Position numbers and translations under genes: made by a program. A model generated the notes under the pieces. That model ran no database searches, had not been told where the DNA came from, and was given only the letters and a program-made list of their open reading frames with translations. 32,013 nt of DNA from a virus, in the IMG/VR virus record IMGVR_UViG_3300046530_000039, positions 1-32,013 of that record; one strand, given 5' to 3'. Below, in pieces: positions 3,508 to 31,758 of this stretch. Within the stretch, counting starts at the first letter, position 1; each line of letters opens with the position of its first letter.

Positions 3508-3981
3508 ATGTCCCGTTTTGCGCAGTTGCGTCAATTGAAGCAAAAACAAGACGAAGCGATTCGCGAGTATTGGCACGACCTACAAGGTACGGCCGGCGTT
3601 ATTCGGAAGGGGTTTTCGGATTATTTAGAGCTTCCGCACGAATTTTATCGTGATGAGGATGGGGACGAGGTTCCCTATGTCCGTCTCGCCAAGAAAGTGA
3701 ATGGTGAATACAAGTACGTCATGCTCCACGAACTCCCGGGGCAGGATTCGTTTCTTGAGTTCTATATTGGGCTGACTATCGATAGGGATGTGAACACATA
3801 CCCGAAGCAGAATGTCTTCACTTTTTTGAGAATGAAGAAAGAGGAAGGTGGTTATCTGGTTGTTTCGCAAGAAAACAACATCTCGCTGACGATTTCAATT
3901 TCCGACGGCACTGCTGATTTTTCTGTGCTCTATGAAGCAATGTTTGAGCTGCTCAAGAACCATTTTAGCTTTAAGCCATGA
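3508..3981 (+). CDS. Hypothetical cargo protein between Q position and holin
   Basis: This 157-residue protein has a good ribosome binding site (CGGAGGG, 7 bases before the ATG). It is more AT-rich than the phage genes around it and is bracketed by two intrinsic terminators (3423-3452 and 4009-4034), the layout of an inserted accessory gene ('moron'). The N-terminus is a charged helix (RQLKQKQDEAIREYWHDLQG); the rest is a mixed alpha/beta soluble protein with no signal peptide or membrane segment. I recognise no family. If the candidate late promoter is real, it would be the first late gene. Confidence 0.6.
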   Translation: MSRFAQLRQLKQKQDEAIREYWHDLQGTAGVIRKGFSDYLELPHEFYRDEDGDEVPYVRLAKKVNGEYKYVMLHELPGQDSFLEFYIGLTIDRDVNTYPKQNVFTFLRMKKEEGGYLVVSQENNISLTISISDGTADFSVLYEAMFELLKNHFSFKP

Positions 3982-4554: not shown

Positions 4555-4887
4555 CTACAGGCTCACCAAGTAAAGCTTCCTGCACATCTCCCATGCGAAG
4601 TTTCCATTAACCCTTATGGCTTTGTCGTCTTTGCCGTGCGGAATCAATACATCCTGAACACCACCGAGCGCTGCTCGATAGTCGGAAGGGTCAGCCTCCG
4701 GCGAAACATTGCGGCTCAAATGCGGCAAAAAGCCATTCTGGTGAAGCAGCTCAGAAGATTGGGTCAGTCTCTCTTTTGCATGAGATTTGACTGATTCCCG
4801 CTTTTCCCCCTGTTTGCTGAGGTACATATTTGCTGCTACGTACTCGCGAGCCGAGATGAGCAGTTCGTCTTCAGTTGCCATTTCCAT
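4555..4887 (-). CDS. Hypothetical reverse-strand protein between holin and terminase
   Basis: This 110-residue protein reads against the flanking late genes. I place the start at the fifth codon of the longest frame because GGAG lies 6 bases before that ATG. The N-terminus (MEMATEDELLISAREYVAAN) is a plausible amphipathic helix; the protein is soluble, with no signal peptide. A competing forward frame (4510-4794, GTG start) lacks a ribosome binding site and looks like a shadow. No family is recognised. The reverse orientation within a late operon suggests expression in the lysogen as a moron, but no strong promoter is visible upstream. Confidence 0.5.
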   Translation of the reverse strand: MEMATEDELLISAREYVAANMYLSKQGEKRESVKSHAKERLTQSSELLHQNGFLPHLSRNVSPEADPSDYRAALGGVQDVLIPHGKDDKAIRVNGNFAWEMCRKLYLVSL

Positions 4888-4953
4888 AAAGCACTCCATA
4901 AGGTCGTTTTACATAGATTGGGGCGACATACCTAAAAGCAACTTGGAATCGAT

Positions 4954-6964: not shown

Positions 6965-8424
6965 TGAGCGACGTCACTTTCACTCGCCCCGAGTACGACG
7001 CGGCGAAAAAACGCTGGCGCTTGGTGCGCGACGTCTGCAAAGGCTCCGAAACCATCAAGGCTGCTGGCGACCGCTACCTACCAAGGCCGAACGCGGCCGA
7101 CACAAGCGAGGACAACAAGCAGCGCTACGAGGCGTACAAGAAGCGGGCGGTGTTCTACAACGCCACCGGCAGAACGAAGCACAGCCTCGTCGGCGCGGTA
7201 TTCCGTACCTGGCCAACGCTTACCGTTCCTGGTGCGCTCGACTACGTGGCCAAGGACATCGACGGCCAAGGCGTGAGCGTTTACCAGCAGTCCCAGTCCG
7301 TGATCGGGCATCTGCTCGAAGTGGGCCGGCACGGGCTGCTGGTGGATTACGCCGCAGTCGAGGCTGGAACGGTCAGCAGAGCAGACGAACTTGCCGGCCG
7401 GGCCCGGGCAAACATTGCCAGCTACAACGCGGAGTCGATCATCAACTGGAAGACTCGCCAGGTCGGCGGTCAGCACCTGCTGAGCCTTGTCGTGCTGCGT
7501 GAGACGGTAGATGTCGACACGGATGATGGCTTCGGTAGTGAGCAGGTTGTTCAGTACCGCGTATTGCGCCTGGATTCTGCCGGGATGTACACGCAAGAAG
7601 TCTGGAGAGAAGGGGCGGGTGAGACTGCTCAGGTTGTTGCACCATTCACGCCGCTCAATGGCTTGGGGCGGCCATGGAAGTTGATCCCGTTCCAGTTCGT
7701 TGGTAGCGAAAACAACGACACCAGCATCGACGATTCACCGCTGTACGACATGGCTGAGATCAACATCGGTCATTACCGGAACAGTGCGGACTACGAAGAG
7801 GCGGCCTACCTGGTTGGGCAGCCGCAGCCGTGGATGTCCGGCCTGAGCGATCAATGGCGCGACCATTTGGAAGAAGAGGGCATCTACCTCGGCTCCCGAG
7901 CGCCTTGGTTGCTCCCCCAAGGCGGCGCCTGCGGAATGATGCAGGCTCAGCCGAACGCACTCGCCAAGGAAGCCATGGACGCGAAGAAGCAGGACATGGT
8001 TTCGCTTGGCGCCCGATTGATTGAGCGTGGCAGCGCGGTGAAGACCGCCACCCAGGCCGACAACGACAGCGCCGCCGAACACAGCGTCCTGTCTCTGGTG
8101 GTCAGCAACGTCAGCGAGGCTTACAGCCAGTGTCTGGCGTGGATGGCCGAGTTCGTGAATGCCGATGGCGAGGTGATCTACAAGCTCAACCAAGACTTCA
8201 GCCAGATCACCCTTGATCCTACGGTTTTGGTTGCGCTGTTCAACGCGGTGCAAGGCGGCAAGTTGCCGGAAGGCGATTTCTGGCAGTACCTGCGCGATCG
8301 CGGCGTGATCAATCCGGAGAAGACGGACGACGAGATCCGGGATGAGCTGGAGGCGCAAAGCACCGGGCCAAGCCTGGATGACGACGAGGTGATCCCGAAT
8401 GGCGGCAAACCAAGCAATCCTTGA
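6964..8424 (+). CDS. Portal protein (DUF4055 family)
   Basis: This 486-residue protein follows TerL, the usual portal slot. The N-terminal stretch (YDAAKKRWRLVRDVCKGSE, then RAVFYNATGRTKHSLVGAVF) is characteristic of the DUF4055 portal family. The portal is the dodecameric ring at the capsid vertex through which DNA is packed and ejected. The C-terminal part is helical and ends in an acidic, low-complexity tail. It overlaps the next gene by 26 bases. Confidence 0.85.
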   Translation: MSDVTFTRPEYDAAKKRWRLVRDVCKGSETIKAAGDRYLPRPNAADTSEDNKQRYEAYKKRAVFYNATGRTKHSLVGAVFRTWPTLTVPGALDYVAKDIDGQGVSVYQQSQSVIGHLLEVGRHGLLVDYAAVEAGTVSRADELAGRARANIASYNAESIINWKTRQVGGQHLLSLVVLRETVDVDTDDGFGSEQVVQYRVLRLDSAGMYTQEVWREGAGETAQVVAPFTPLNGLGRPWKLIPFQFVGSENNDTSIDDSPLYDMAEINIGHYRNSADYEEAAYLVGQPQPWMSGLSDQWRDHLEEEGIYLGSRAPWLLPQGGACGMMQAQPNALAKEAMDAKKQDMVSLGARLIERGSAVKTATQADNDSAAEHSVLSLVVSNVSEAYSQCLAWMAEFVNADGEVIYKLNQDFSQITLDPTVLVALFNAVQGGKLPEGDFWQYLRDRGVINPEKTDDEIRDELEAQSTGPSLDDDEVIPNGGKPSNP

Positions 8425-9484
8425 TGCCACGATCCGGCACGCCGTCTTCCTCGAGCAGCTGAAGTCGGGAGAGGTGGCGAAGTTCGCACCATTCCTGAAA
8501 GAGATCGACCGTTCGATCCGTGAGCGGCTGACCCAGGCGGGTATGACGGATTACACCGTCGCCCGCCTTGAGCGGCTGCTGAGCGAGGTTGACAGCCTGC
8601 TGCTTGGGATCTTCGACCGGTACAGTGAAAAGCTGAACCTTGATCTGGTGGATGTCGCCAACTACGAGGCAGAGTTTGAGGCGACCAGTCTGACCCGGGC
8701 GGCGCCGGTAGGCGTCTCGTTCGATGCTGCGATGCCAGGTGCGGCGGCGATCAGGGCGGCGATCCTCACCAACCCGCTCAGTGTGCGCGGCGCTGATGGC
8801 GGCAAGCTGCTCAAGTCGTTCATCGATGGCTTCACCGCCACCGAGCGGCAGCGCCTCACAGGCGCGATCCGGCAGGGCTTCTTCGAAGGCAAAACCAACT
8901 TCCAGATCATCAAGAACATTCGCGGCACCAAGGCGCTGAAGTACAACGACGGCATCCTGGCTACGACCAACCGGAATGCCGGTTCGATCGTGCGGACGGC
9001 GGTGCAGCACGTCGCGACCCAGGCGCGCATGGAAACGCTGAAAGCGAACTCCGATGTCGTGTCGGCGGTGGAGTGGGTCAGTACGCTGGATTCGAAGACG
9101 ACCAGCCAGTGCAGGACGCTGGATAAACGTCGCTTCAAGCTGACTGAAGGGCCACGACCGCCAATCCACATCAACTGCCGTTCGACGGTGGTGGCGGTGA
9201 CGCGTTTCAGTGCGCTGTTCGCCGAGGGCGCCACGCGGGCATCTATTGGCGATGCTGGCGCGCAGCAGGTGAGGGCAGATCTCAGCTACTACGACTGGCT
9301 CAAGCAACAGCCGGTGGCGTTTCAGGACAAGGCCATTGGCCAGGTTCGGGCGAAGCTATTCCGCGAAGGCGGATTGAGTGTCGAGCGCTTCGCCGAGCTG
9401 CAGCTTGATCGAAACTTTGCACCGCTGACGCTTGCGCAAATGAAAGCTTTGGAACCACTGGCGTTCGCTCGCGCAGGCGTGTGA
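8399..9484 (+). CDS. Minor head protein, SPP1 gp7 / Mu F-like head morphogenesis protein
   Basis: This 361-residue protein starts 26 bases inside the portal gene. The middle region contains the conserved segment of the gp7/MuF family: a helix with R-T-AVQHVATQARMETL, then VEWVSTLDSKTTSQCRTLD, then PPIHINCRSTVVAV (about residues 200-275). Such proteins bind the portal, enter the procapsid and assist head assembly or early ejection steps. The position between portal and scaffold is standard. Confidence 0.9.
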   Translation: MAANQAILDATIRHAVFLEQLKSGEVAKFAPFLKEIDRSIRERLTQAGMTDYTVARLERLLSEVDSLLLGIFDRYSEKLNLDLVDVANYEAEFEATSLTRAAPVGVSFDAAMPGAAAIRAAILTNPLSVRGADGGKLLKSFIDGFTATERQRLTGAIRQGFFEGKTNFQIIKNIRGTKALKYNDGILATTNRNAGSIVRTAVQHVATQARMETLKANSDVVSAVEWVSTLDSKTTSQCRTLDKRRFKLTEGPRPPIHINCRSTVVAVTRFSALFAEGATRASIGDAGAQQVRADLSYYDWLKQQPVAFQDKAIGQVRAKLFREGGLSVERFAELQLDRNFAPLTLAQMKALEPLAFARAGV

Positions 9485-9488
9485 AAGG

Positions 9489-10100
9489 TCAGTCACCGTC
9501 CTTGTCTAGCGGAGACTTGTACCAGAAGTACGGCTTGATGGGATCCTTGACTGCCGGCTTTCCAGCGAGGAACTCTTTTGCTGCTTCAACATTGAAGTCG
9601 AGAGCGTTGACCGGTCGGTAGAAATCGAACTTCCGTTTTGTGGGAACGAATATCCCAGTGCTCACCAAGGCGTTCACCACTTCTGTAGTTGCCTGCATGG
9701 TGTTGCGGTACGGTGAATTTTTTGAAAGAAATTTCGCTCGAATGAGCGGGTCCAGCGACCCTAGCTGCCGAGCGTCGAAATTGGCCAGGGCCTGCGTGCG
9801 CATGTTTACTGGAAAACTCTCGCCGTACTCTTTTCGCACTTCGTCGAGGTCGTCGTCGGCGCCCATGCTCACTTGGTGCGTCCGGACACAGTAGTCAACG
9901 AGTCGGACGAGATCAATGTGCTCGCCTGGTGCGTGGGGTAGTGAAATGCGTAGCCCGTCCTCCGACAGAAGGCTGCCTCCTGTCGAAGCTGTCCGAGTCT
10001 CATTCATCTGTTTCTGAAGCATCAGGTATTCCTCATATGGGATCAAAGCAAACAGTGGTTTGCCTTCTTGATCGGTGATTATTTGGTGTTTTTTGTTCAT
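9489..10100 (-). CDS. Reverse-strand cargo protein with an antitoxin-like N-terminus
   Basis: A 203-residue protein on the reverse strand separates two late head genes. I choose the ATG at 10100, giving MNKKHQIITDQEGKPLFAL; a longer frame exists, but its extra N-terminus would be encoded over the promoter and operator described below. The first ~35 residues (IITDQEGKPLFALIPYEEYL) resemble the N-terminal strand-helix found in Phd/YefM-like and HigA-type antitoxins. The rest (e.g. PVNMRTQALANFDARQLGSL) belongs to no family I know and holds no clear helix-turn-helix. It ends 4 bases after the forward gene. It is most likely expressed in the lysogen: immunity, anti-phage or regulatory roles are possible but unproven. 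Confidence 0.6.
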   Translation of the reverse strand: MNKKHQIITDQEGKPLFALIPYEEYLMLQKQMNETRTASTGGSLLSEDGLRISLPHAPGEHIDLVRLVDYCVRTHQVSMGADDDLDEVRKEYGESFPVNMRTQALANFDARQLGSLDPLIRAKFLSKNSPYRNTMQATTEVVNALVSTGIFVPTKRKFDFYRPVNALDFNVEAAKEFLAGKPAVKDPIKPYFWYKSPLDKDGD

Positions 10101-10110
10101 GTTGCGCTCT

Positions 10111-10130
10111 TTTTCATTTTGAAATGAAAA
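10111..10130. promoter_or_regulatory. Palindromic operator candidate
   Basis: TTTTCATTTTGAAATGAAAA is a near-perfect palindrome (arms TTTTCATT/AATGAAAA around TTGA). It lies between the -10 box and the start codon of the reverse-strand gene, so a bound protein would block its transcription. Autoregulation by that gene's antitoxin-like product is a reasonable guess. Confidence 0.5.
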
Positions 10131-10156
10131 TATAAACGAAATAAACCAAATTTCAA
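10129..10156 (-). promoter_or_regulatory. Sigma-70 promoter of the reverse-strand cargo gene
   Basis: On the reverse strand, TTGAAA (10151-10156) and TATATT (10129-10134) are 16 bases apart, in an AT-rich patch unlike the surrounding phage DNA. Transcription would start about 25-30 bases before the ATG at 10100. Confidence 0.6.
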
Positions 10157-10215
10157 AGCTCATTTTTCCCCGGTTGACCGGGACTTTCACATCCGCAGGC
10201 AGGGCCTGCACCTAC

Positions 10216-10228
10216 GTCTCTGGGAGAC
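10216..10228 (+). promoter_or_regulatory. Hairpin over the scaffold gene's ribosome binding site
   Basis: GTCTC-TGG-GAGAC forms a 5-bp stem that includes the GGGAGA ribosome binding site of the scaffold gene starting at 10234. Just upstream, GCAGGC-AGG-GCCTGC (about 10195-10209) can also fold. The pair may modulate scaffold translation or mRNA stability. Confidence 0.35.
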
Positions 10229-10233
10229 AACCA

Positions 10234-10941
10234 ATGCTGAAATTCCAACTGGATACCCTGGAAGGGGTAGATGAAGCCGTGCGCGCTCTTTACACCGAGA
10301 AGGACGGCAAGTTCGTACTCGGCATTGAAGGTCTGCCGCAGCAAGAAGATGTATCCGGCCTGAAGGCCAAGGTTGATGAGCTGCTCGGCGAGAAGAAAGC
10401 CGCCGAGAAGAAGGCGCGCGAAGCTGAAGATGCAGCGCGCCTTGAGCGTGAAGAAGCCGCTCGCAAGTCCGGCAACGTCGAAGAGCTCGAGCGTTCCTGG
10501 ACTGAAAAATTTACCCGCCGCGAAGCTGAGCTGAACGGCATGTTGGAACAGGAGCGTGGAACGCTGAGCGGGCAGATCCGGGATCTGACTGTTGGCCGTA
10601 CCGCTACTGATATCGCATCTGCCTTGGCTGTTCAAGGCAGCGCAAAAGCCCTGTTGCCGCACATCGAACGCCGTCTGAGCGTCGAGCAGCGCGACGGGAA
10701 GCCTGTTGTGGTCGTCCTCGACGCACAGGGCAAACTCTCGGCGGCAACGCTGGATGAGTTGAAAGCAGAAATCGCGAATGACGCGGCGTTCGCACCGCTT
10801 ATCGCGGGCAGTAAAGCATCTGGCGGCGGGGCCGGCGGTGCAGGTGGTGGGGGCGGGGCCCCGAAAGGAAAAATCGGCGGTACCAAAGAGGAACGCACGG
10901 CTGCAATCGCAAGCCGGTTCCCAGATCTCCCTCAATCGTAA
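10234..10941 (+). CDS. Head scaffold protein
   Basis: This 235-residue protein is placed just before the major capsid gene. The start at 10234 has GGGAGA upstream; the longer frame beginning at 10174 has no support. The N-terminus (MLKFQLDTLEGVDEAVRALY) and the long charged coiled coil at about residues 45-110 (EKKAAEKKAREAEDAARLER) are typical of phage scaffolding or minor head proteins (GPO/gp20-like). A Gly-rich linker precedes a short basic C-terminal tail, the usual capsid-contact element. It guides procapsid assembly and then leaves the head. Confidence 0.8.
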   Translation: MLKFQLDTLEGVDEAVRALYTEKDGKFVLGIEGLPQQEDVSGLKAKVDELLGEKKAAEKKAREAEDAARLEREEAARKSGNVEELERSWTEKFTRREAELNGMLEQERGTLSGQIRDLTVGRTATDIASALAVQGSAKALLPHIERRLSVEQRDGKPVVVVLDAQGKLSAATLDELKAEIANDAAFAPLIAGSKASGGGAGGAGGGGGAPKGKIGGTKEERTAAIASRFPDLPQS

Positions 10942-31567: not shown

Positions 31568-31622
31568 CAGCGAGCGCCCGGCGCGAAGCCTCTGGTTTGG
31601 CGGGCTGTAGAGCAGTCCGCTT

Positions 31623-31669
31623 GCATGGGGTGCTAGGGGTCGAGTGTTCGAATCACTCCGTCCCGACCA
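31623..31669 (+). other. Right attachment site: 3' fragment of tRNA-Pro (GGG)
   Basis: The stretch contains an anticodon-loop ATGGGGT, then GGGGTC, then a T-arm (GAGTG-TTCGAAT-CACTC) and the acceptor end CGTCCCGACCA, as in tRNA-Pro with GGG anticodon. The 5' part is missing: where the acceptor 5' strand (TCGGGAC) should lie, near 31593, there is unrelated sequence. The 5' anticodon strand CTTGC does not pair with the 3' strand GCTAG, which places the junction at about the anticodon stem. A tRNA 3' fragment at the end of a prophage is the standard duplicated att core. The functional tRNA should be at the other end of the prophage, outside this window. Confidence 0.75.
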
Positions 31670-31685
31670 TATAATTCAATGACTT

Positions 31686-31713
31686 AGCCCAATCTGAAAA
31701 GGTTGGGCTTTTT
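31686..31713 (+). terminator. Terminator after the tRNA fragment
   Basis: AGCCCAA (31686-31692) pairs with TTGGGCT (31703-31709) around a 10-base loop and is followed by T residues. It is probably the original terminator of the tRNA gene, on the host side of the attachment site. Confidence 0.75.
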
Positions 31714-31758
31714 CATGCGTGGGGAATTTGCGGGGGGGCATCTCGTTTTCTCCTCAAG

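Follow-up and report, generated by a model that had tools for sequence, protein, structure and literature searches.

Between two forward-strand head genes of a Pseudomonas phage DNA stretch of 32,013 nucleotides, analysed as a whole and referred to below as the window, lies a gene on the opposite strand. The features of this locus, in positions of the window, are as follows.

8399..9484, forward strand: head morphogenesis protein, Mu F-like, flanking gene (PF04233, E = 2.9e-11; phrog_241, E = 1.3e-145)
9485..10194, no strand: cargo slot, from the head gene stop to GCAGGCAGGGCCTGC; empty or otherwise filled in related loci
9489..10100, reverse strand: coding sequence of a solitary antitoxin-like protein (P0001, 203 aa; phrog_20342), from translation, PHROGs match and dN/dS
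9540..9965, reverse strand: C-terminal winged-helix-like domain, residues 46-187 (AlphaFold2, VIA-align, hhalign)
9993..10091, reverse strand: N-terminal module, residues 4-36, a beta-hairpin and helix common to Xre antitoxins of RelE/ParE-type toxins
10111..10130, no strand: 20-bp palindrome TTTTCATTT-TG-AAATGAAAA (perfect 9+2+9), proposed operator
10129..10134, reverse strand: predicted -10 hexamer TATATT (promoter scan, p = 0.007)
10132..10145, reverse strand: further operator-like sequence TTTATTTCGTTTAT in the spacer of the promoter; its word type is that of the palindrome arms
10151..10156, reverse strand: predicted -35 hexamer TTGAAA (promoter scan, p = 0.007)
10195..10209, no strand: boundary element GCAGGCAGGGCCTGC, conserved in all 6 empty sites and in 65 of the 71 that are filled
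10216..10228, no strand: inverted repeat GTCTC-TGG-GAGAC, which closely precedes the scaffold start and belongs to the fixed site (site comparison)
10234..10941, forward strand: scaffold protein, flanking gene (phrog_206, E = 1.6e-57)

The open reading frame at 9489-10100 is a real gene under purifying selection: dN/dS is 0.08 against a relative of 87% identity and 0.03-0.17 over seven family pairs. Relatives of P0001 share 32-87% identity with it. Its sole whole-length match was phrog_20342, a family of unknown function to which it aligns over the full length (E = 2.6e-42) with no difference in kind. Searches by tblastn detected no P0001 relatives among INPHARED phages or in PLSDB, and two distant family members likewise found none in INPHARED. 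Assignment to a virion structural family, named beforehand as an outcome that would refute the cargo gene proposal, was rejected, the only such match being to Phage_TAC_9 (E = 0.08, 13.4 bits), far below the cut-off of 25 bits.

A cargo slot in the head operon

The original prediction described a self-contained cargo gene inside the head operon, and comparison with related loci bears this out. Among 80 loci encoding close relatives of the head morphogenesis protein (L164-L243), both flanks of the slot were visible in 77. Nine of these slots hold a member of the P0001 family, in antisense orientation, 62 hold other genes on either strand, and six are empty. At the empty sites the head gene stop is followed by GCAGGCAGGGCCTGC, GTCTCNGGGAGAC and the scaffold ATG, all within 44-48 bp. 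These counts make the stretch from the head morphogenesis gene to the scaffold gene a hotspot for cargo, and its empty sites are precise. The gene for P0001, present or absent between conserved phage genes and provided with its own predicted promoter, has by its sequence context the properties of a moron.

The occupants fall into about 25 kinds by longest-ORF clustering, a figure that is only approximate, as shadow ORFs were picked in some loci. Ten occupants other than P0001 were tested; one Gp49-like and one NinX-like protein were recognized among them, the rest being uncharacterized, and PADLOC gave no match for any of the ten. Apart from the P0001 family, this head-operon hotspot is thus occupied mostly by uncharacterized small genes, which are hence candidates for immunity or counter-defence. 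Plus-strand occupants at L193, L206, L232 and L029 belong to the Gp49/Sf6 gene 66 family (PF13876, E = 5.6e-31 for L193), and several plus-strand occupants terminate in terminator-like hairpins just before GCAGGCAGGGCCTGC. Five reverse-strand occupants (L169, L198, L201, L231 and L236) encode proteins of 160-213 aa that have a strong hydrophobic segment close to the N-terminus; they are candidate membrane immunity proteins, and the one tested (L169) had no Pfam, PADLOC or PHROGs match. The inverted repeat GTCTC-TGG-GAGAC is retained in nearly all relatives and may act as an mRNA hairpin or as a recombination anchor.

We collected about 30 distinct relatives of P0001. Wherever their flanks are readable, the gene nearly always lies antisense beside or near a head-morphogenesis gene, and this placement is kept even where the head-morphogenesis protein is only about 31-57% identical. 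In the L054/L056/L062/L298 group an extra gene intervenes before the head-morphogenesis gene, and the flank of L066 is uninformative. The P0001 slot lacks a second gene and the flanks of its relatives are head genes; no toxin gene adjoins the family gene in the window slot or in any relative with a readable slot, as predicted for the window. A complete toxin-antitoxin system was therefore rejected, the slot having no second gene and the protein no Xre domain.

The search for the same gene at other places gave a divided answer: phage relatives nearly all sit by the head-morphogenesis gene, but two chromosomal copies are located apart from head genes, L034 (near a tRNA-Pro gene and an integrase remnant) and L035. 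What these otherwise unrelated loci have in common is only the gene and some 50 bp of its control DNA (82% identity over 518 bp), which shows that the transcription unit is self-contained. At the far end of the window, positions 31620-31717 match the tRNA-Pro region bordering the L034 prophage remnant and also a stretch of L043; going by these matches, they probably represent the end of the phage that carries the attachment site.

Antitoxin-type parts of P0001

The antitoxin-like N-terminus of the original prediction can now be narrowed to a specific module. In the predicted model it consists of two strands (residues 6-9 and 15-19) and a helix (22-37). Outside the phage family, profile A3 matched only residues ~2-36 (one match extending to 71), at the start of Xre proteins of about 116 aa. 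Several of these, from elsewhere in Proteobacteria, are encoded next to or overlapping a RelE/ParE-like toxin gene (L245-L249, L259, L261 and L262), and phrog_20342 matches one such Xre antitoxin with E = 0.0013. P0001 thus has in common with RelE/ParE-partner Xre antitoxins (phrog_7241-like, ~116 aa) the N-terminal ~35 residues, but a winged-helix-like domain takes the place of the Xre helix-turn-helix and there is no adjacent toxin gene. Matches of Pizza proteins to the Xre antitoxin N-terminus were discounted, these being designed repeat proteins. In Pseudomonas, proteins combining the module with Xre were found in 63 of 199 genomes, some of the matches covering only the Xre half, and a motif scan placed an adjacent toxin beside just 3 of 30. 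Since most of them are solitary, toxin binding is not a necessary property of the module. Judged by these matches, the N-module is antitoxin-type, although toxin binding cannot be assumed. Its likeness to Phd is weaker than that to the RelE/ParE-partner Xre antitoxins, and membership of P0001 in Phd/YefM was rejected (TIGR01552, E = 0.018, 14.4 bits against a cut-off of 20.8).

The remaining ~165 residues had been described as unknown, a statement that no longer holds. As the original prediction proposed, the structure of the 203 residues was predicted: the AlphaFold2 model, built from a 43-row alignment, has a pLDDT of 82 and shows the beta-hairpin and helix (6-37), a loose linker and then a winged-helix-like domain. 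The top VIA-align rows were a Wadjet JetABC chain (Z = 5.7) and SarS (Z = 5.5), and lower rows were mainly MarR-, SarA- and PadR-type winged helices. The best Foldseek E-value was 0.13, with none below 0.001, and neither Foldseek against BFVD nor sequence searches against solved structures, the latter for the family, returned a significant or useful match. The modelled C-terminal fold is therefore probably a winged helix, not a proven one, because Foldseek alone is non-significant.

The same domain has a relative in another antitoxin context. By hhalign, residues 47-155 of P0001 match the C-terminal part of HicB fusions (probability 98, E = 1.7e-14), in which a related domain is joined to HicB and Xre in Pseudomonas prophages and viral contigs (L038-L041, L084-L099, L114 and L136). 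The HicB part of the fusions matches E. coli HicB structures. In 17 of 18 loci hicA lies upstream, so these are genuine hicAB pairs; the idea that they too are solitary antitoxins was ruled out by the preceding hicA gene. P0001 and these fusions (phrog_497 plus a phrog_20342 part), found in the same Pseudomonas prophage group, thus have homologous C-domains, but P0001 lacks the HicB (RNase H-like) domain, the Xre domain and hicA. Searches of Pfam and PHROGs gave no HicB match for P0001, domain and family profiles gave no Xre DNA-binding match, and a hicA partner is absent. In the tree, HicB-fused and solitary C-domains form two separate groups (support 100/99). With a front end of the Xre-antitoxin kind and a C-domain related to that of the HicB fusions, P0001 is accordingly a chimera of antitoxin-type parts, while being itself a member of neither Phd nor HicB. 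In Pseudomonas prophages, antitoxins of the RelE/ParE type are thereby connected with HicB antitoxins by one shared domain; the open-access literature that we searched, on solitary phage antitoxins and on HicB with winged helices, does not describe such an arrangement.

Within this prophage group, HicB proteins other than the fusions have different C-terminal extensions or none. Across L084-L163, Pseudomonas-prophage HicB antitoxins share the HicB-Xre part and carry at least five C-terminal extensions or none, and 43 of 45 without the winged-helix domain are also preceded by hicA. A relative of the C-module is found at the N-terminus of a 382-aa protein (L044:7246-8394), beside a reverse-strand ORF of 2088 aa, and L042 has a short version of 102 aa.

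Control region

Upstream of the gene, the expected promoter, palindrome and AT-rich region were all recovered. The predicted promoter TTGAAA-16-TATATT (10156-10129) agrees with the sigma-70 consensus at 10 of 12 positions and is significant within the 90-nt region upstream of P0001 (p = 0.007), the scan of 1.8 kb returning 2 sites where 0.5 would be expected. Located between promoter and start, the palindrome overlaps the -10 hexamer with its final two bases; on its own it is marginal (p = 0.055 against AT-rich shuffles) because the surrounding stretch is so AT-rich. The GC content of the control region is 27%, compared with 58% for the window, where equally AT-rich 60-mers make up 0.13%. The palindrome occurs once in the window even with up to 3 mismatches allowed. 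A phage-wide regulon sharing the operator was rejected on this count, and any action within the phage would be local.

The control region is conserved in kind among relatives. Taking the best inverted repeat per 70-nt control region in 21 distinct relatives, we found such repeats enriched (combined p = 6e-10), and promoter-like sites as well (combined p = 0.004), both values being rough because the relatives are not independent; for certain lineages the promoter match does not exceed chance. The repeat words vary by lineage, being of TTTCATTT, TACATTGTA or GGAGCG type, and the TTTATTTCGTTTAT word type is seen again in L047-L049, L054 and L061. Inverted repeats with lineage-specific sequence in 21 lineages point to autorepression. 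The autoregulation proposed originally thus stands as far as this comparison of control-region sequences, from which it draws all its support.

As to which domain might read the operator, similarity between control regions follows that between C-domains (partial rank correlation 0.45, permutation p = 0.0005) more than that between N-modules (0.14, p = 0.05), which fits a DNA-binding winged helix. One relative, L061, combines a B-type C-domain with an A-type operator, its N-module being closest to A-type proteins; from its sequence, this combination may reflect an influence of the N-module on operator choice. The suggested autorepressor logic resembles that of Aca proteins, helix-turn-helix-type autorepressors acting on inverted repeats of a phage accessory promoter (PMC9410906, PMC8434428). 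Compared with Aca, P0001 differs in its domain make-up and in having no accompanying acr-like gene.

Possible roles of the gene

Taken together, these observations are best explained by a cargo gene of the moron type that occupies a hotspot of the head operon and encodes a chimeric, solitary, antitoxin-like autorepressor, a reading to which we give an even chance of being right. According to it, the winged helix would bind the palindrome and shut the gene's own promoter. The promoter would then be open just after DNA entry, before the repressor builds up, and expression in the lysogen would be low and steady; during lytic growth, late antisense transcription would run over the gene. The N-module might bind a toxin-type partner from the host or a rival element in trans, in which case P0001 would act as a self-limiting antitoxin mimic. 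A broader proposal, which we make tentatively and regard as doubtful, is that phage-specific chimeric solitary antitoxins, expressed on DNA entry from a self-limiting promoter, neutralize toxins of the host or of rival elements in trans, and that such antitoxin-mimic counter-defence arises by swapping a winged helix between RelE-type and HicB-type front ends. Either way, an uncharacterized phage protein family gains a testable make-up and control scheme.

The main rival is anti-phage immunity, since the anatomy of the locus matches that of tab in Pseudomonas phage JBD26, which lies on the minus strand of a late operon, has its own promoter and encodes a product that blocks tail assembly of invading phages (PMC10884400). 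P0001 might similarly be an effector against superinfection expressed from the prophage, its antitoxin-type parts being a regulatory scaffold only. The many alternative cargo genes of the slot, including the reverse-strand hydrophobic-segment proteins, fit such a role too. However, the likeness to Tab is one of anatomy (minus-strand late-operon cargo with its own promoter) and makes Tab a precedent for the arrangement rather than evidence of function. Tab has 83 aa, is encoded between terminase genes and is paired with anti-Tab (PMC10884400), whereas the P0001 slot lacks a comparable plus-strand companion. P0001 matched 0 PADLOC families, and both of its recognizable domains are of regulator or antitoxin types, with no additional effector domain. 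We therefore consider an effector role somewhat unlikely, if worth serious attention.

It is considerably less probable that the gene acts on its own phage only, antisense transcription or local repression silencing the head operon in the lysogen. Such an action would agree with the antisense position near a head-morphogenesis gene wherever phage flanks are readable, and no terminator was found after the P0001 stop in the window. But clear terminators are present in some relatives (e.g., L062 and L067, from their sequence), related phages dispense with the gene altogether, having empty slots or plus-strand occupants, and the two free-standing chromosomal copies are distant from head genes. We see equally little likelihood that P0001 is primarily a repressor of host or rival-phage promoters sharing its operator, autoregulation being a side effect: a winged-helix-like domain and a conserved operator-like element would suit this function, but the operators are lineage-specific and the window holds no second site. 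Finally, antitoxin-type parts without a toxin gene might suggest a decaying toxin-antitoxin remnant with no present function, but the low dN/dS across lineages makes this most unlikely, and control regions that retain inverted repeats and the same absence of a toxin from the slot in ~20 distinct lineages also speak against it.

Beyond the P0001 gene, the window has two further cargo candidates. One is a reverse-strand ORF of 114 aa at 4555-4899, without matches. Another is P0004, encoded on the forward strand at 3508-3981 and matching phrog_5091, of unknown function; the equivalent place in L041 is taken by a HicB gene with the winged-helix fusion.
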